From a bacterium (GTDB lineage Bacteria; Patescibacteriota; Minisyncoccia; Phycocordibacterales; UBA12079), in the NCBI GenBank assembly GCA_030641525.1, contig DAOWHH010000014.1:1-33175 (forward strand): a stretch of DNA of 33,175 nucleotides, given 5' to 3'. Under the pieces are notes generated by a model. That model ran no database searches. It had not been told where the DNA came from and was given only the letters and a program-made list of their open reading frames with translations. Of the stretch, positions 3,982-11,142 are shown piece after piece (within the stretch, counting starts at the first letter, position 1; each line of letters opens with the position of its first letter). Both the position numbers and the translations under genes were made by a program.

Positions 3982-4257
3982 ATGAATAAAGTAGCAATAA
4001 TAGAAGTAGTTCAAAATGTGTTAGGTGGAACAAAGGTAGATGCAGAAAAGGCAGTAGATTCTATCTTTGAAGCTATTACAGACTCATTAAAAAAGGGTGA
4101 AGATGTATCAATCGCAGGATTTGGTATCTTTTCAGGTAAAATGCGAGCAGCAAGAACTGCTAGAAATCCTAGAACTGGAGAAGCAATTCAAGTTCCAGCT
4201 ATGAGAGTACCAAAATTCAGAGCTTCAAAAACTTTGAAGGATACAGTAAAGGGATAA
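3982..4257 (+). CDS. hup: HU-family DNA-binding protein
   Basis: MNKVAIIEVVQNVLGGTKVDAEKAVDSIFEAI...GFGIFSGKMRAARTARNPRTGEAIQVPAMRVPKFRASKTLKDTVKG. Confidence 0.93.
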   Translation: MNKVAIIEVVQNVLGGTKVDAEKAVDSIFEAITDSLKKGEDVSIAGFGIFSGKMRAARTARNPRTGEAIQVPAMRVPKFRASKTLKDTVKG

Positions 4258-4271
4258 GAAAATAAGACTAT

Positions 4272-4313
4272 AAAAATAACCGAGTACTTTAAAAAGTACT
4301 CGGTTATTTTTTT
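4272..4313 (+). terminator. Rho-independent terminator of HU gene
   Basis: aaaaataaccgagtacttt-aa-aaagtactcggttattttttt. Confidence 0.85.
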
Positions 4314-4330
4314 GTGCCCGAAAATAATAG

Positions 4331-4760
4331 AGGGAGAATCGGGGTCAAGTTTCTAAGTAAAATTTTTCGCTATCGCTCAAATTTTACTAAGAACTTCCTC
4401 CCCGGACTCGGCGACAAGCACTCGCTTCGCTCGTCTTGTATACCGCCTCCGTCTTTCGATTCTCCCTATCCGTGCAAAAACATATCCTCCCAGAGCTTTC
4501 GCTCTGGGAGGATTGTTTTTGTGCGGATAGGGCTCTCGTCCTGACGGTCACTAAGTAAAATTGTTCATTCGCAAGCTCATTCCAATTTTACTAAGTGCCG
4601 CGGGACACAGCTCATAGTTGTTCGCTATCGCTCACAACATATTCCGCTGTTCGATTCTCCACGAAAAGCCCGCAGGGGCTTTTCTCTATCCGCACACAAT
4701 AGAAAAACACGCTCTGACAGAGCGTGTTTTTCTATTGTGTGCGGATAGGGAGAATCGAAC
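4331..4760. repeat. Composite palindromic array carrying inverted tRNA-Gly 3'-end copies
   Basis: Repeated gattctccctatccg / cggatagggagaatc arms, nested hairpins (cagagctttcgctctg, gaaaagcccgcaggggcttttc), two hairpins sharing ctaagtaaaatt arms, and a 63-nt perfect palindrome at 4686-4748 overlapping the tRNA acceptor end. Confidence 0.8.
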
Positions 4761-4810
4761 TCCCGTTTCATCCTTGGCAAGGACGTGTTCTACCACTAAA
4801 CTATACCCGC
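4740..4810 (-). tRNA. tRNA-Gly (GCC)
   Basis: Reverse strand gcgggtatagtttagtggtagaacacgtccttGCCaaggatgaaacgggagttcgattctccctatccgc-a. 7-bp acceptor, anticodon GCC, no encoded CCA. Confidence 0.95.
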
Positions 4811-4853
4811 ATTAATGTTATTTTATCAAAAAAACACTACTTTCTCAAATAAA

Positions 4854-4886
4854 AAAACTGCCAAAGATCCGAAGATATGGCAGTTA
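4854..4886 (-). terminator. Terminator of the 55-aa ORF
   Basis: Reverse strand aactgccatatcttcggatctttggcagtttttttatt. Confidence 0.65.
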
Positions 4887-4892
4887 AAACAA

Positions 4893-5060
4893 TCAAAAAG
4901 AGATGGACCAGATAAATAAAGCTAGTATCAATGCATAAGAAATACTTTTATCTATAACAGTACTCCAATACCCTTCGCCTTTGGATATAAAAAGTTTAAA
5001 TAAAATATCTAAAAAAGTCCATACAGCCCATAACATTACCGCTTTTATAAGCATGTCCAT
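4893..5060 (-). CDS. Small (55 aa) putative membrane protein, absent from the supplied ORF track
   Basis: Reverse-strand translation MDMLIKAVMLWAVWTFLDILFKLFISKGEGYWSTVIDKSISYALILALFIWSISF*. Preceded by SD-like ggag (ggagataatATG) and followed by a hairpin terminator at about 4856-4886. Confidence 0.65.
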   Translation of the reverse strand: MDMLIKAVMLWAVWTFLDILFKLFISKGEGYWSTVIDKSISYALILALFIWSISF

Positions 5061-5161
5061 ATTATCTCCAATTTGAATGTTTAGTTTTTATTAAATTCAT
5101 TTATTACTTACTGCTTTAACAATAACATATACTAATACTAATGTCAATATTACATTAATTT

Positions 5162-5190
5162 TTTACATAATAATCAAATACTGATATCAT
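5162..5190 (+). promoter_or_regulatory. Promoter of HD gene with -10 box 8 nt before ATG
   Basis: TTTACA-17 nt-TATCAT with extended -10 (TGaTATCAT), then agacaata, then ATG at 5199. Confidence 0.55.
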
Positions 5191-5198
5191 AGACAATA

Positions 5199-5762
5199 AT
5201 GATTAAAAAAATTGAAAAGATAGTAGAAGATGCCTGTAAAAAAGAAACTAATTATTTCGGTTATGGTATTTGGACAAACCATATTGTGCGTGTAGTTAAA
5301 TATTCAAAAATGATGGCTGAAAAAATTGGTGCTGATCAGGAAATAGTTGAAATAGCTTCTCTACTACATGATTATGCAGGTATTATTAACTACAATTTAT
5401 ATGAAGATCACCATATTCATGGAGCTATTGAAGCTGAAAAAATATTAAAGAAATTTAATTATCCCCAAGAAAGAATTGAATTAATAAAAGATTGTATAAT
5501 CTCACACAGAGGTAGCAAATTAAGACCTAAAAATAGCAAAGAAGTTGTATGTGTAGCAGATGCAGATGCTATGGCACATTTTAACTCTGTTAATTCGTTA
5601 TTTTATCTAACATTTTTTAGCCATAAATTAGAAGTTGATGAAGCTAGCGATTGGATAATGCAAAAATTAGAAAGAAGCTGGAATAAATTAAGCCCTGAAG
5701 CAAAAGATATCATTGAAGATAAGTACAAAGCGTGTAAATTGATATTAATTAATCAAGATTGA
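5199..5762 (+). CDS. HD-domain phosphohydrolase
   Basis: H..(31-32), ASLLHDYAG, HGAIEAEKIL, ISHRG, CVADADAM, arranged as in HD hydrolases. Confidence 0.8.
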   Translation: MIKKIEKIVEDACKKETNYFGYGIWTNHIVRVVKYSKMMAEKIGADQEIVEIASLLHDYAGIINYNLYEDHHIHGAIEAEKILKKFNYPQERIELIKDCIISHRGSKLRPKNSKEVVCVADADAMAHFNSVNSLFYLTFFSHKLEVDEASDWIMQKLERSWNKLSPEAKDIIEDKYKACKLILINQD

Positions 5763-5869
5763 TTTTATTTTCTATATTTAAATAAAAAGACTGGCACAAA
5801 AGTACCAGCCCTTCATCAATTGATATCAAATAATTAAACAAATTATTCAATTTTAGTAATAAGAAAGAT

Positions 5870-6103
5870 CTACCGAAAGAGTTCAGTTGAAACTACTGGT
5901 ATAATTTGATCTTCTCTAACAGGATCACCAGAACCTTGTTCAAGAACTTTTTCTATTCTAATGAAAACAATTCCTTTTCGACAACTGGATACTACTGCTT
6001 CAGCTAGAACATGATAACAACCCTTTCCTGCATCATAAATGACCTCATCATCTTTTCTTAAGAAAGGCATTACCTCTGGTATTAGTTGTTTTAATTCAGA
6101 CAT
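5870..6103 (-). CDS. Hypothetical small protein (77 aa) with strong SD
   Basis: Upstream reads aaagaggagttATG. Compact ORF MSELKQLIPEVMPFLRKDDEVIYDAGKGCYHVLAEAVVSSCRKGIVFIRIEKVLEQGSG.... Confidence 0.65.
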   Translation of the reverse strand: MSELKQLIPEVMPFLRKDDEVIYDAGKGCYHVLAEAVVSSCRKGIVFIRIEKVLEQGSGDPVREDQIIPVVSTELFR

Positions 6104-6224
6104 AACTCCTCTTTATTTTGTTTTATTAATTTAAATGAAGAACTACAATAAAGTAGAATGTAGATTACTATATATAATAATTAATATCAAGAATAATAGA
6201 GATGTTGACTTTTCACAATATATT

Positions 6225-6262
6225 CCATCATTCGAACCCTAGGTTGTCTACCTAAGGAGAAA
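6225..6262 (-). pseudogene. Degraded tRNA 3'-half remnant
   Basis: Reverse strand tctccttaggtagacaacctagggttcgaatgatgg parallels the anticodon-arm/T-arm part of the adjacent tRNA-Pro copies. Confidence 0.5.
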
Positions 6263-6303
6263 ATATTATATGTTATCTTATTATAAAATTAATTGATTAC
6301 TAG

Positions 6304-6378
6304 TCGGGATGCCGGGATTCGAACCCGGAGTCGTCTGTCTAAGGCAGAAAAGTCAGTCCTAATACCACACTCTAATTA
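6304..6378 (-). pseudogene. Degenerate tRNA-Pro-like pseudogene
   Basis: T-arm and 3' acceptor strand identical to the neighbouring tRNA-Pro (ccgggttcgaatcccggcatcccga), but the 5' half (agagtgtggtattagg...) mispairs and the anticodon loop lacks U33. Confidence 0.65.
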
Positions 6379-6387
6379 ACTATATTG

Positions 6388-6460
6388 TCGGGATGCCGGG
6401 ATTCGAACCCGGAGTCGTCCGCTCCCAAAGCGGAAATGTTAGCCGTTACACCACACCCCG
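6388..6460 (-). tRNA. tRNA-Pro (TGG)
   Basis: Reverse strand cggggtgtggtgtaacggctaacatttccgcttTGGgagcggacgactccgggttcgaatcccggcatcccg-a. Full cloverleaf, no encoded CCA. Confidence 0.93.
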
Positions 6461-6616
6461 AAATTATTTATTTGTTTATGTACTTTTGTGGGTCGTCTGC
6501 CTTAGGCAGAAAAACATTAGCCGTTACACCACACCCCGAAATTATTTATTTGTTTATGTACTTTTGTGGGTCGTCTGCCTTAGGCAGAAAAACATTAGTC
6601 GTTACACCACACCCCG
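6461..6616 (-). repeat. Two tandem 78-bp repeats each containing a tRNA-Pro 5' half
   Basis: 6461-6538 and 6539-6616 differ by one base (attagccg vs attagtcg). Each holds cggggtgtggtgtaacggctaat-gtttttctgcctaaggcagacga plus AT-rich spacer. Confidence 0.95.
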
Positions 6617-6620
6617 ATAT

Positions 6621-6875
6621 TTAATTGTTTATATATTGTTTTAATATCGTATTCTTTATCCATTCTCTTCCCTTTCCTCCTTTTAACATTTTCTCTCTTA
6701 ATATAGCCTGACTTCGTGTATTATATGATTCTTTATATATTATTTCAAATACACCTTTGTTTTTTGTATACTTTTCTCTTCCAGAATTATGTCGCTCTAA
6801 TCTATCATCCAAATTTTTTGTCTGCCCAATATAAGTTTGATTTTTATTATTTTTTAAAATATAAACATAATACAT
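6621..6875 (-). CDS. Single-domain GIY-YIG endonuclease
   Basis: MYYVYILKNNKNQTYIGQTKNLDDRLERHNSGREKYTKNKGVFEIIYKESYNTRSQAILREKMLKGGKGREWIKNTILK: YVYIL..YIGQT..L..R...H...Y motif order. Confidence 0.93.
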   Translation of the reverse strand: MYYVYILKNNKNQTYIGQTKNLDDRLERHNSGREKYTKNKGVFEIIYKESYNTRSQAILREKMLKGGKGREWIKNTILKQYINN

Positions 6876-6883
6876 CCTAGTTA

Positions 6884-6930
6884 GTCGTCTGCCTTAGGCA
6901 GAAAAACATTAGCCGTTACACCACACCCCG
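6884..6930 (-). pseudogene. Third tRNA-Pro 5'-half fragment
   Basis: cggggtgtggtgtaacggctaatgtttttctgcctaaggcagacgac on the reverse strand, same as the halves in the tandem repeat. Confidence 0.85.
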
Positions 6931-6931
6931 A

Positions 6932-6979
6932 TTATTTTAACAATGTATTTTTTATCCATTCTATCATATTCTTAACCAA
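6932..6979 (-). pseudogene. C-terminal remnant of a second GIY-YIG endonuclease
   Basis: Reverse strand encodes LVKNMIEWIKNTLLK*, matching the C-terminus GREWIKNTILK of the adjacent intact ORF. Confidence 0.65.
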
Positions 6980-6992
6980 TTTAAAATTAATT

Positions 6993-7415
6993 TTAAATAA
7001 TAATATCTTCAAAATATTTAACTTCAAATTTTTTGTCCTTTATATTTAAAAAGATAATTATAATATCAAATTGCCATTCTCTTTCATCAGAAATTTCTTT
7101 TTCCATTAAATAAGTCTGAAAAACTCTAGATAATCTCTGTAATTTCCAATGATGTATATTATCACTTACTAGATAATTATCCATTATTCCATTAATATTC
7201 CACCATCTATCACCACAGGAGACACTTTTTACCTCTATAAAATGAATTCTTTGATTTTTTTTAGGAAAAAAGGATTTTTTCTGAGCAATAATATCAATCT
7301 CACCCCATTTTTTTAAATAATTTCTATCGATAATTTTAAAGTCATTTTTCTTCAAAAATTTACAAGCCCTATCTTCACCCAAATTCCCTATTTTTCTTTT
7401 TTCACTTATTCCCAT
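6993..7415 (-). CDS. YraN-like (UPF0102) predicted endonuclease
   Basis: GNLGEDRACKFLKKNDFKIIDRNYLKKWGEIDIIAQKK...IHFIEVKSV: nuclease core (GEIDII...FVEVK). Confidence 0.85.
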   Translation of the reverse strand: MGISEKRKIGNLGEDRACKFLKKNDFKIIDRNYLKKWGEIDIIAQKKSFFPKKNQRIHFIEVKSVSCGDRWWNINGIMDNYLVSDNIHHWKLQRLSRVFQTYLMEKEISDEREWQFDIIIIFLNIKDKKFEVKYFEDIII

Positions 7416-7729
7416 CTTTTTATTACTTTAAATTAGAAAACAGAATCCTACTACGAACTTTCTAAACAGTAAATCTCTCGTAACAAGTTCTATTTTATAA
7501 TTCAAAGTCTTATTATGATAACATATATATAAAATATATGTTTTTCCTATAAAAAAAGTAGGAACAACACAAGATATGTTTCTTAGTAACATATATTTTC
7601 TATCTATCAACTAGTCAAAGAGTTTCTAAAAAGATAATGTCTTTTTATCATAATATACTTATATTAAGCCATATTTAAAGATAATTTGACACCTACAAAA
7701 AGACAAATCACTTGTTTATAAAGGTCAAG

Positions 7730-7769
7730 TTATACACTTTATACACCGTTTTATCCACATTTATACACA
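7730..7769 (+). promoter_or_regulatory. Cluster of four DnaA-box-like nonamers (candidate origin or DnaA-regulated site)
   Basis: TTATACACT 7730, TTATACACC 7739, TTATCCACA 7751 (perfect consensus), TTATACACA 7761; same orientation, AT-rich flanks. Confidence 0.55.
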
Positions 7770-7849
7770 ATTTAGATATAAAATTGGCATAAATAGAAAT
7801 TTTTATAAAAAGATTCTGACTAGCATATCTAATAACAAAGATATACTAA

Positions 7850-7980
7850 TCGGAGATCGTTTAAACAGTCAAGACTTATAACTGTTCGGTTCTCCACAAA
7901 AAGCCTGTAAAAGCTTCTCTCTACCCTCAAAAAACAAAAATATCTAGTAATTACTAGGTATTTTTGTTTTTGTGTAGGGT
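7850..7980. repeat. Dispersed tRNA-3'-end-like palindromic element without a tRNA
   Basis: ggagatcg...gttcggttctccacaaaaagcctgtaaaagcttctctctaccct...hairpin...agggt, same layout as 4648-4748. Confidence 0.65.
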
Positions 7981-8064
7981 AATGGACAATATTAAAACCT
8001 CTTTTAGGCATTAATTGGACACAATTCAGCTTGGATCACTTCTATTTAATGTGCACAATGTTCA

Positions 8065-8343
8065 TTATATTTTTATTATCTCAATTGCCTTACCTTTGGT
8101 TAATGCTTCAGCAATTTTTTTATAAGCAGAGGATAAAATTCTCTGAAATGTGCTTTGAGAGGTCTTCATTTGTTTAGCACATTCGGTTTGATCTAGATCT
8201 TTTACATTTTTCAATCTTATTGCTTCTAACTCTTCATTACTTAACTCAACCACTTCCAAAGACCCCATTGGTATTCCCTGAGGCTTGAAATAAGTCACAT
8301 CCGGTTTAAATTTTATTCTTCTACAAAGTCTTGGTCTTGTCAT
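8065..8343 (-). CDS. DUF134-family putative DNA-binding protein
   Basis: MTRPRLCRRIKFKPDVTYFKPQGIPM...LSNEELEAIRLKNVKDLDQTECAKQMKTSQSTFQRILSSAYKKIAEAL. Confidence 0.9.
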   Translation of the reverse strand: MTRPRLCRRIKFKPDVTYFKPQGIPMGSLEVVELSNEELEAIRLKNVKDLDQTECAKQMKTSQSTFQRILSSAYKKIAEALTKGKAIEIIKI

Positions 8344-8407
8344 GTATATTATTCTACTACAATTACTAATTTTATTAAGAAAAGCCCCTTTTTCGGGGGC
8401 TCCTCTC

Positions 8408-8611
8408 TTATTTCTGGTCTTTTAAGGCTTCTTTTTCCTCACGAACTGCTTTTAACTCTTTCTCTAACATTTTTTCTTCTTCATCCAAAGCTTCTTTTTC
8501 GTTTTTTTGAGTCCAAGCTCTACATCTCGGGCTATAAACACAGCAAGGACCACAACCTCTTCCAGTTCTAGAACCCAAGCCTCGAGGACCAGTTCCATCT
8601 AATCTAGGCAT
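8408..8611 (-). CDS. DUF5320-like protein
   Basis: MPRLDGTGPRGLGSRTGRGCGPC N-terminus followed by a coiled coil; typical neighbour of DUF134. Confidence 0.8.
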   Translation of the reverse strand: MPRLDGTGPRGLGSRTGRGCGPCCVYSPRCRAWTQKNEKEALDEEEKMLEKELKAVREEKEALKDQK

Positions 8612-8761
8612 AATATAATATTTTATTTATATTGATAAAATCGACCTTTCACTATTATGTTATAAGTATATACCCATAACTATATTCCTGTCAAGGAAAA
8701 CAAAAAAAATATAGCAATAAAAGATATTTATGCTAAAAACGAAATCTTGTGCAATATAGGC

Positions 8762-8860
8762 GGAGAATCAGTTCGATTCTCCCTACCCGCTACAAAAATA
8801 TAATGCAAAAATGCTATTGCATTTTTTTCATTATTTTTGTGCGGGTAGGGAGAATCGAAC
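8762..8860. repeat. Palindromic element with inverted copy of tRNA-Gly(TCC) 3' end
   Basis: gttcgattctccctacccgc (8771-8790) is the exact inverse of gcgggtagggagaatcgaac (8841-8860); the intervening sequence is itself hairpin-forming. Confidence 0.9.
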
Positions 8861-8910
8861 TCCCGTTTACTGCTTGGAAGGCAGTTGTTCTACCACTAAA
8901 CTATACCCGC
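8840..8910 (-). tRNA. tRNA-Gly (TCC)
   Basis: Reverse strand gcgggtatagtttagtggtagaacaactgcctTCCaagcagtaaacgggagttcgattctccctacccgc-a. No encoded CCA. Confidence 0.95.
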
Positions 8911-8994
8911 ATTATTTTTCATATTTTAACATAAAATATAGGAATATAAAATATTTATTTTATTTTTAATATATTGATGTATAATATAAACTAT

Positions 8995-9066
8995 GTCCTC
9001 GTGGTGAAATGGATATCACAACGGTCTTCGGAACCGTTATTGTGGGTTCGAATCCTGCCGAGGACA
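8995..9066 (+). tRNA. tRNA-Arg (TCG)
   Basis: gtcctcgtggtgaaatggatatcacaacggtctTCGgaaccgttattgtgggttcgaatcctgccgaggac-a. 7-bp acceptor; no encoded CCA; TATAAT 9 nt upstream. Confidence 0.95.
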
Positions 9067-9127
9067 CAAATTTACATAGTGTTTCACCAGAAACATCTAA
9101 AACCTTAATAATGTTTTATATAAAACA

Positions 9128-9571
9128 TTAAAAATTATCTATTTTCTCCTTAATTAACTGGAAAAGAGTCTGATTTCCATTTAATCTGTAATTTGGAACA
9201 AATTGGTCGTGCCTAATATTATCCAAATTTAAAACCTCAATTCTTCCTTTTGTAGAATTAAACATTTGTAAAGGCCAAAGCATCTTATTTGAAAATCTAG
9301 CAAAAAAATCACTTCCTGAACAAAAACAAAATATTGGAAAATCACTTATTTTTCTAGGTTTATTAACAGGACAAATAGCAATAATTCCTTTAATTTTTTG
9401 AATATTACCATTTTCAATAGCTAAAAGAGCTATTTCTGTGCCTATACTTTCAGTAAAAAATAAATACTCGTCATTTGGGTTTTTATCAAAAATCTTAATA
9501 ACTTCATCAGAAGCATTAGAAATGCTATAAGGAATCATCTTTCTACTCCAATTTAACTCTATTACATCCAA
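9128..9571 (-). CDS. Putative alpha/beta-hydrolase-like protein
   Basis: Nucleophile-elbow-like FFTESIGTEIALLAIE, ..IFCFCSGSDFF.., HDQFVPNYRL; weak family resemblance. Confidence 0.55.
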   Translation of the reverse strand: MDVIELNWSRKMIPYSISNASDEVIKIFDKNPNDEYLFFTESIGTEIALLAIENGNIQKIKGIIAICPVNKPRKISDFPIFCFCSGSDFFARFSNKMLWPLQMFNSTKGRIEVLNLDNIRHDQFVPNYRLNGNQTLFQLIKEKIDNF

Positions 9572-9645
9572 TCTAAATTTTTGGAATTCCTAAAACCAAG
9601 GATTTTTTATATTATTTTAATATAAAACTTGATATACTAAATACA

Positions 9646-11142
9646 ATGTTAAATATTAAAAACATTCCAAAAGAAGTTACACGTGTAACTGAAACTTTAG
9701 AAAAAGCTGATTTTGAGGCTTATCTTGTTGGTGGTTGTGTTAGAGATTTATTATTAAATAAAAAACCAAAAGATTGGGATATTACTACTAATGCTAAGCC
9801 AGAACAAATATTAGAACTTTTTGAGCATACTTTTTATGAAAATTCATTTGGAACAGTAGGAGTTGTTTCAGACCCTAAATCTACGGTCGGGCAAAGTGAA
9901 ACAATAGACGAAAGTCTAAAAACCATAGAAATAACCCCTTATCGTTTAGAAAGTCGTTATTCAGACAGCAGGCATCCAGATTCTGTTATTTTTAGTGATA
10001 AATTAGAAGATGATTTAAAAAGAAGAGATTTCACTATTAATGCTTTAGCCTATAATGTATCAAAAGATAAATTAGTAGATCTTTATAAAGGACAAAAAGA
10101 TATAAAGGACAAAATCATCCGAACTGTTGGTGAACCTGAAAATCGTTTTGATGAAGACTCCCTTAGAATATTGAGAGCAGTACGACTTGCAACAGAATTA
10201 GATTTTTCAATTGAACAAAAAACAGAAAAAAATATCTTAAAATTTGCGAGTAAATTGAAAAATATTTCACAGGAAAGGATACGAGATGAATTTTCTAAAA
10301 TTCTTATGTCGGATAATCCTATGAGTGGTATTATTTTAAGTCAAAAACTTGGTCTTCTTACATATATTATTCCTGAATTAGAAAAAGGTATAAACGAAAC
10401 ACAGAAAGGAGCTCATATCTATACAATATGGGAGCATAATTTACGCGCTCTGCAACATTCTGCAGACAAAAAATTTCCATTACATCTTCGTTTATCTGCC
10501 TTATTACACGATATTGCTAAACCACACACTAAATATTGGCATAAGGATAAAAAAGAATTTACTTTTTATGGTCATGAGGTAGTAGGGGAAAGGGTTTCAC
10601 GTGAAATATTACAAAGATTAAGATACTCTAAAAACACCATTGATATTGTCACAAAATTAGTTAGAAACCATCTTTTCTTTTCTGATATAGAAAAAATCAC
10701 ATTATCAGCAGTAAGACGAATTATTAGAAATATGGGATCAGAAAATGTTTGGGATCTTATGAAACTCCGCACTTGCGACAGGATAGGGATGGGGAGACCT
10801 AAAGAAAAACCTTATAGATTAAGGAAATATATGGCGATGATAGAAGAAGCGATGAAAGACCCTGTCTCTGTTAAAATGTTAAAAATAGACGGCAATAGAA
10901 TTATGGAAATAATAAACGAAAAACCTGGACCCAAAATAGGTTTGGTTTTAAATGCCTTAATGGAAGAAGTCCTAGACAATCCAAAATTAAATACAAAAAA
11001 ATATCTTGAATCTAGGACTTTAGAATTAATAAAATTACCTCAAAAACAATTAGAATCCCTAAGTAAAAAAGGGGAAGAAAAAAAAGAGATTTTGGAGAAA
11101 GAAGAAATTGGAGAGATCAGAAAAAGACACGGTGTTAAATAA
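9646..11142 (+). CDS. CCA-adding tRNA nucleotidyltransferase / poly(A) polymerase family with HD domain
   Basis: LVGGCVRDLLLNKKPKDWDITTNAKPEQI, RRDFTINALAYN, RFDEDSLRILRAVRLATEL, HD: LSALLHDIAKPHT, FYGHEVVG. Confidence 0.92.
   Translation: MLNIKNIPKEVTRVTETLEKADFEAYLVGGCVRDLLLNKKPKDWDITTNAKPEQILELFEHTFYENSFGTVGVVSDPKSTVGQSETIDESLKTIEITPYRLESRYSDSRHPDSVIFSDKLEDDLKRRDFTINALAYNVSKDKLVDLYKGQKDIKDKIIRTVGEPENRFDEDSLRILRAVRLATELDFSIEQKTEKNILKFASKLKNISQERIRDEFSKILMSDNPMSGIILSQKLGLLTYIIPELEKGINETQKGAHIYTIWEHNLRALQHSADKKFPLHLRLSALLHDIAKPHTKYWHKDKKEFTFYGHEVVGERVSREILQRLRYSKNTIDIVTKLVRNHLFFSDIEKITLSAVRRIIRNMGSENVWDLMKLRTCDRIGMGRPKEKPYRLRKYMAMIEEAMKDPVSVKMLKIDGNRIMEIINEKPGPKIGLVLNALMEEVLDNPKLNTKKYLESRTLELIKLPQKQLESLSKKGEEKKEILEKEEIGEIRKRHGVK

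Follow-up and report, generated by a model that had tools for sequence, protein, structure and literature searches.

The GIY-YIG homing enzyme SegB cleaves within tRNA genes and causes tRNA-segB repeats to form (PMC13096335). These repeats are tandem and consist of a tRNA together with a 3'-truncated segB, and they form via microhomology between the 5' end of the tRNA and the 3' end of segB (PMC13096335, PMC2988022). A second described system is that of the mORFs of fungal mitochondria, which are found in atp6 of Allomyces and in atp6, atp9, cox2 and nad3 of Glomus (PMC3630166). CPR bacteria, for their part, are known to have introns in their rRNA genes that carry homing endonucleases (Tsurumaki et al., cited in PMC10714607). 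In the open PMC literature that we searched, there was no earlier account of tRNA-inserted GIY-YIG genes in CPR bacteria. Here we describe a locus at which a small GIY-YIG ORF lies among partial and complete copies of tRNA-Pro, and compare it with related loci.

Layout of the tRNA-Pro array

The array occupies the minus strand of the window, a term used here for the entire 33,175-nucleotide stretch of DNA that was analysed, and its features are described in their 5' to 3' order on that strand. The site is marked upstream by a gene at 6993..7415, which we take to be a member of the YraN family. A 30-nt remnant of the C-terminus of an older GIY-YIG ORF (6932..6961, encoding EWIKNTLLK and a stop) is followed at a distance of 0 nt by a stranded 5' fragment of tRNA-Pro, half A (6884..6931), comprising tRNA positions 1-48. 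Next is an intact ORF of 84 aa (P0001, 6621..6875), and 3 nt past its stop codon begins another 5' fragment, half B (6570..6617). Half C (6492..6539) is a tandem copy of half B, the two being parts of a 78-bp repeat that consists of a half and a 30-nt spacer. An intact tRNA-Pro(UGG) at 6387..6461 (start 6461 or 6460) is called by ARAGORN and scores 60 bits with Rfam. Beyond it lie a degenerate tRNA-Pro-like copy (approximately 6303..6376), with a CCTTAG anticodon arm and an intact 3' half that has 33 identical 3' nt in common with the intact gene, and a decayed tRNA 3' part (approximately 6222..6259).

Halves A, B and C are 98-100% identical over 48 nt, which excludes chance as the source of their resemblance. 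In these halves the 15-nt palindrome TCTGCCTAAGGCAGA stands in place of the anticodon arm, and exact matches to TCNGCCNNNGGCNGA in the window assembly are confined to the three halves. Of the 37 tRNA hits in the genome (584 kb in 18 contigs), a single one is a full tRNA-Pro of this type.

A first-pass annotation had read the locus as an array of tRNA-Pro halves, GIY-YIG copies and intact and degenerate tRNA-Pro genes on the minus strand, and this description stands with corrections. Of the two GIY-YIG copies that it listed, one is an intact ORF and the other is the 30-nt remnant. The "halves" are longer than that word implies, reaching the variable region at about position 48, with the anticodon arm exchanged for the palindrome. 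Its statement that the stop codons fall within about 1-4 nt of a tRNA 5' half was borne out by the distances of 0 and 3 nt given above. The degenerate tRNA-Pro-like gene is real as a copy, and neither ARAGORN nor Rfam calls it as a tRNA.

A GIY remnant also precedes a stranded half in the related genome G001, as it does before half A. These older GIY 3' remnants raise the possibility, inferred from their sequences, of successive insertions into a rebuilt tRNA. The window array is probably a derived form produced by more than one event; halves B and C either lost a GIY gene of their own or never possessed one. Elsewhere in the window, inverted partial copies of tRNA 3' ends occur just past a tRNA terminator (8770-8797 / 8834-8861, 4455-4480 and 4680-4754). 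The same is seen at L026, L029, L040 and L055, and the resulting long palindromes are centred on the terminator.

Small GIY-YIG genes abut tRNA genes in many genomes

We gathered 181 distinct small GIY ORFs from 61 related genomes, all of which (61/61) contain PF01541, and from 80 named contigs. The scan for homologues used the single protein as query, an alignment of 8 sequences having proved too diverse. A gene was scored as adjacent when a tRNA 5' end fell between -30 and +25 nt from the GIY stop; enough flanking sequence for this was available for 174 GIY genes, and the control consisted of the remaining genes on these loci with a length of 150 aa or more. A tRNA 5' end on the same strand was found in this interval for 48 of the 174 small GIY genes vs 13 of 421 other genes (p=3e-17). 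When genomes were picked solely by the presence of PF01541, 20 of 91 GIY genes were tRNA-adjacent (p=1e-8). No opposite-strand tRNA was found at the stop of any of the 174 small GIY genes. The adjacent tRNAs span 14 amino-acid families. An overlap of 10 nt between ORF and tRNA was seen at six loci, where the TAG found at tRNA positions 8-10 serves as the stop codon. Most of the sampled GIY genes are not tRNA-adjacent. It should be noted that related loci are not independent, which applies both to these counts and to the fragment counts below, and that the tRNA calls depend on ARAGORN, which missed some tRNAs (as at L148). The GIY-bearing contigs include records titled Bacteroidales, Planctomycetota, Margulisiibacteriota, Endomicrobiales and Dehalococcoidia; these are MAGs and the contigs may be misbinned.

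The check proposed with the first-pass annotation, whether homologues abut tRNA 5' ends, therefore gave a strongly positive answer, across many species and tRNA types. The accompanying worry that the array might be private to one assembly was not borne out, since independent assemblies from other species share the layout; an assembly artefact was rejected on the same ground.

Empty and occupied sites

Comparison of related genomes reveals sites with and without the ORF. In G010 the tRNA-Pro site is empty: after a YraN-like gene come ...TTTTTATGGTAAGATAGGGAAGTTAAATCAAATAATA and an intact tRNA-Pro, in that order. In G009, a genome from the same family, the site is occupied, and a near-identical promoter leads into a stranded half, the GIY ORF and an intact tRNA-Pro. 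The YraN-like gene upstream of the window locus resembles, as judged by eye, the gene that precedes the empty site in G010. Likewise, the tRNA-Asn site is empty in G003 and G001 and occupied in G002, with a promoter stretch in common. These comparisons are between species and not within a population. Because the native promoter leads to the intact tRNA when the site is empty and to the stranded fragment when it is occupied, we conclude from sequence alone that the tRNA gene itself took the insertion and that the copy downstream was rebuilt. By sequence, an occupied unit has the native promoter and tRNA 5' end stranded upstream, then the ORF, then a complete tRNA. The repeating module of GIY-YIG plus tRNA 5' half proposed earlier is thus only partly upheld, the basic unit being a stranded tRNA 5' fragment, the GIY gene and a complete regenerated tRNA.

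Over their first 26 nt, the tRNA-Pro 5' ends of the stranded copy, the rebuilt copy and the sister species are identical, and this similarity leaves both a donor and a local duplication possible as the source of the rebuilt 5' part. In G004 and G007, stranded Asn fragments without an ORF precede an intact tRNA, and we infer that these are most likely scars of ORF loss. A different kind of insertion was seen in G006 (C13:3598-4260, minus strand; L237), where a tRNA-Asn is split near the anticodon by about 580 nt encoding an HNH-like ORF. By its look only, with no Rfam comparison, this insert may resemble a group I intron.

Stranded fragments and their palindromes

The 150 nt before each GIY start were compared with the downstream tRNA. 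The 5' 30 nt of that tRNA were present in 40 of 57 loci and its 3' 30 nt in 8 of 57, while the 5' part was located downstream of the tRNA in 3 of 58. tRNAs of other species scored at least 30 in 0.75% vs 34%, the lower figure representing chance. None of the 12 testable control genes adjoining a tRNA had an upstream tRNA fragment. About 14 of the 57 tRNA-adjacent loci lack a clear stranded fragment. The fragments end anywhere from position 15 to the full length of the tRNA, with groups near 18-28 and 43-58. A duplicated gene end therefore flanks the ORF while the functional tRNA copy is intact, and the duplicated end is here the 5' end. A mirror image was observed at L051, L170, L108 and L114, where an intact tRNA is followed by the GIY gene and then by a stranded 3' fragment or a hairpin-bearing full copy.

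Inspection of the fragments shows that they are rich in palindromes. Counting GC hairpins with a stem of at least 6, we found a density of 18.8/kb in the fragments vs 0.5/kb just upstream and 0.84/kb in the intergenic background. These hairpins occupy the D arm or the anticodon arm, commonly in neighbouring pairs whose members are nearly reverse complements of each other, and their position and sequence vary between loci. In Bacteroidales it is the downstream copy, beyond the ORF, that bears them. Hairpins mark the non-functional tRNA copy in both layouts, whether it lies upstream or downstream of the ORF. They may be tolerated inserted passengers or they may have a role, and we do not choose between these possibilities. 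Pseudo-tRNAs with palindromes in the D and anticodon regions were also noticed at L044, downstream of tRNA-Phe, and at L102.

The GIY-YIG protein and its target specificity

The 84-aa protein consists of one GIY-YIG domain (PF01541, 60 bits) and a C-terminal helix, and its catalytic positions are conserved, with residues Y5, Y15, G17, R25, H29 and E61 invariant in 30 sequences. In the Pro clade, pN is 0.15-0.23 vs a pS of 0.58-0.81, and this low ratio indicates that the ORF is under purifying selection. The AlphaFold prediction is confident, with a pLDDT of 90, and the nearest solved chains are 1zg2 (UPF0213) and Slx1 6seh, with an rmsd of 2.4. Slx1 is a branched-DNA nuclease. Since it is a near fold, structure-selective cutting by the GIY protein is plausible by analogy; we offer this only as a possibility, and cleavage itself is inferred. 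The protein lacks a separate DNA-binding domain as found in characterised homing enzymes, a feature that is typical of them and not strictly defining. A search for a close phage relative found none (the best weak match had E 5e-7, 38% identity and 76% coverage of the query), and a phage or plasmid origin was set aside for want of a close relative.

On a tree of 175 GIY proteins, tRNA species requires 41 changes vs 57 for shuffled labels, and none of 200 shuffles was as low. The alignment is short and many forks are unresolved. This clustering of tRNA identity suggests with good probability that target specificity is inherited along nuclease lineages. A separate group of 33 members, which we take to be UPF0213-like, is never tRNA-adjacent in this manner.

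Sister clades in and beside other structured RNA genes

Related GIY clades lie inside 16S (L025, L126, L175, L157) and 23S (L027, L079) genes, one gene lies inside RNase P RNA (rnpB; L033), and others lie beside tmRNA (L001, L045, L068, L119, L032, L166, L169, L172, L043). L001 is the second small GIY gene of the window genome (G000:C13:22774-22986) and sits between an SmpB-like C-terminus and tmRNA, as do L045 and L068. One clade is found downstream of both tRNA-Ala and tmRNA. The 3' end of tmRNA is known to resemble tRNA-Ala, and the shared clade might fit recognition of a tRNA-like sequence or shape, although this is an inference.

A second class of GIY genes was observed 70-210 nt downstream of tRNA or tmRNA 3' ends (L032, L166, L169, L172, L043, L140, L149, L138, L142, L121), with a Ser type at L120, L144, L134, L176, L069 and L130. 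This class is preceded by a conserved structured stretch, CCACTNCTTCGCT-hairpin-AGCTTCGCAGTGC ... GCGAAGCAGTG, in which 7 of 19 predicted pairs show two-sided changes.

A homing interpretation and its rivals

The reading that we favor, and regard as likely, is that the ORF encodes a free-standing GIY-YIG homing endonuclease, and that this gene invades tRNA genes and regenerates the 5' part of its target. The earlier proposal of an endonuclease that spreads at tRNA-Pro with partial regeneration of the tRNA is in this way supported by the sequence comparisons; cleavage and transfer are inferred only. In this model the enzyme would cut an uninvaded tRNA allele, and repair from the occupied allele would copy the ORF across, with homology supplied on one side by the stranded 5' fragment and on the other by the 3' part of the tRNA. 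Direct repeats may then recombine and so delete units, as in the putative scars of G004 and G007, or multiply them, as in the window array. The host keeps its essential single-copy tRNA, which would now be expressed from the old tRNA promoter by transcription across the nuclease gene; this is inferred from the gap, which at 25 nt or less is too short to hold a new promoter outside the ORF. The bacteria concerned have very small genomes, and the arrangement could be that of a selfish gene that parasitises essential RNA genes without killing its host. This interpretation is limited by the lack of read data, population data and biochemistry, and by the fact that the protein is a bare domain of about 80 aa.

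Other explanations must be weighed. The GIY protein might be a resident, non-mobile nuclease, engaged in repair or RNA processing and co-transcribed with tRNAs, in which case the fragments would be debris of tandem duplication. The 78-bp tandem repeats of the window and the UPF0213-like members that are not linked to tRNAs speak for this view. We consider it unlikely, however, in light of the occupied and empty sites in sister species, the many different tRNA species involved, the restriction of fragments to GIY loci (0/12 at other tRNA-adjacent genes), and the placement of the fragment upstream of the ORF, where it is nearly always a 5' end. Less probable still is the notion that the stranded fragment and its hairpins were recruited to serve the nuclease as a working leader or regulatory RNA, such as an RNA antitoxin or a translation switch. 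The concentration of hairpins in the fragment relative to the sequence just upstream (18.8/kb vs 0.5/kb) would be expected on this view, the tandem halves before the window tRNA recall RNA-repeat antitoxins, and regulatory hairpins are present on T4 homing genes (PMC2988022). But the hairpins differ among loci in position and sequence, the fragments remain as scars once the ORF is lost, and their length varies from 15 nt to a full tRNA.

It is also very improbable that the unit is a transposon or integrase-type element with an incidental GIY protein, or what is left of a group I intron. In favour of such a view, tRNA genes often serve as sites of integration, and the tRNA-Asn of a related genome is interrupted by 580 nt that hold an HNH-like ORF. 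Against this, nothing but an ORF of about 80 codons lies between fragment and tRNA, the downstream tRNA is complete and not a 3' half, and no intron model was hit in the region; a group I intron at the tRNA-Pro site was rejected for lack of an Rfam intron hit in window positions 4000-10000.

A bolder reading can be entertained as a possibility. There may be a large unrecognised class of minimal, single-domain GIY-YIG elements dedicated to tRNA, tmRNA, RNase P RNA and rRNA genes, whose recognition, in the manner of Slx1, would rest on folded DNA, either hairpins or a cloverleaf formed by extrusion from a tRNA gene, and not on a long sequence. The palindromes in the stranded copies would then be by-products or safeguards.

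Comparison with known systems

UPF0213 and Slx1 have the same fold as the window protein, and Slx1 differs from it in possessing a further domain and a partner, Slx4. The rRNA introns of CPR bacteria resemble the GIY units in belonging to the same bacterial group and in placing homing genes within structured RNA genes. Those introns are spliced, whereas at the tRNA sites with GIY genes there is no intron and the tRNA is regenerated instead.

The units described here offer a direct test case for how a nuclease of 80 residues finds tRNA genes, and they are a source of tRNA fragments and pseudo-tRNAs that confuse annotation. They may also be regarded as the counterpart in bacteria of SegB and the mORFs, the closest of the known systems. 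Like the GIY protein of the window, SegB of phages T4 and T6 is an intron-less, free-standing GIY-YIG protein located among tRNA genes of many isotypes, and by analogy it provides a working precedent for intron-less homing at tRNA genes. SegB is a phage protein encoded in a tRNA cluster, while the window-type ORF is found in bacterial chromosomes. Unlike SegB, the latter encodes the catalytic domain alone, its 3' end lies only a few nt from a tRNA, and a fragment of the same tRNA is stranded upstream. The mORFs, again by analogy, are a precedent for the rebuilding of a gene end: as in the window unit, an endonuclease ORF lies in an essential gene, the cut-off end is supplied by the element, which keeps that gene functional, and the native end is stranded. 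A foreign origin of the new gene end has been shown for mORFs and not for the GIY-tRNA units. Finally, mORFs replace the 3' end of protein genes, whereas the GIY units mostly replace the 5' end of tRNA genes.
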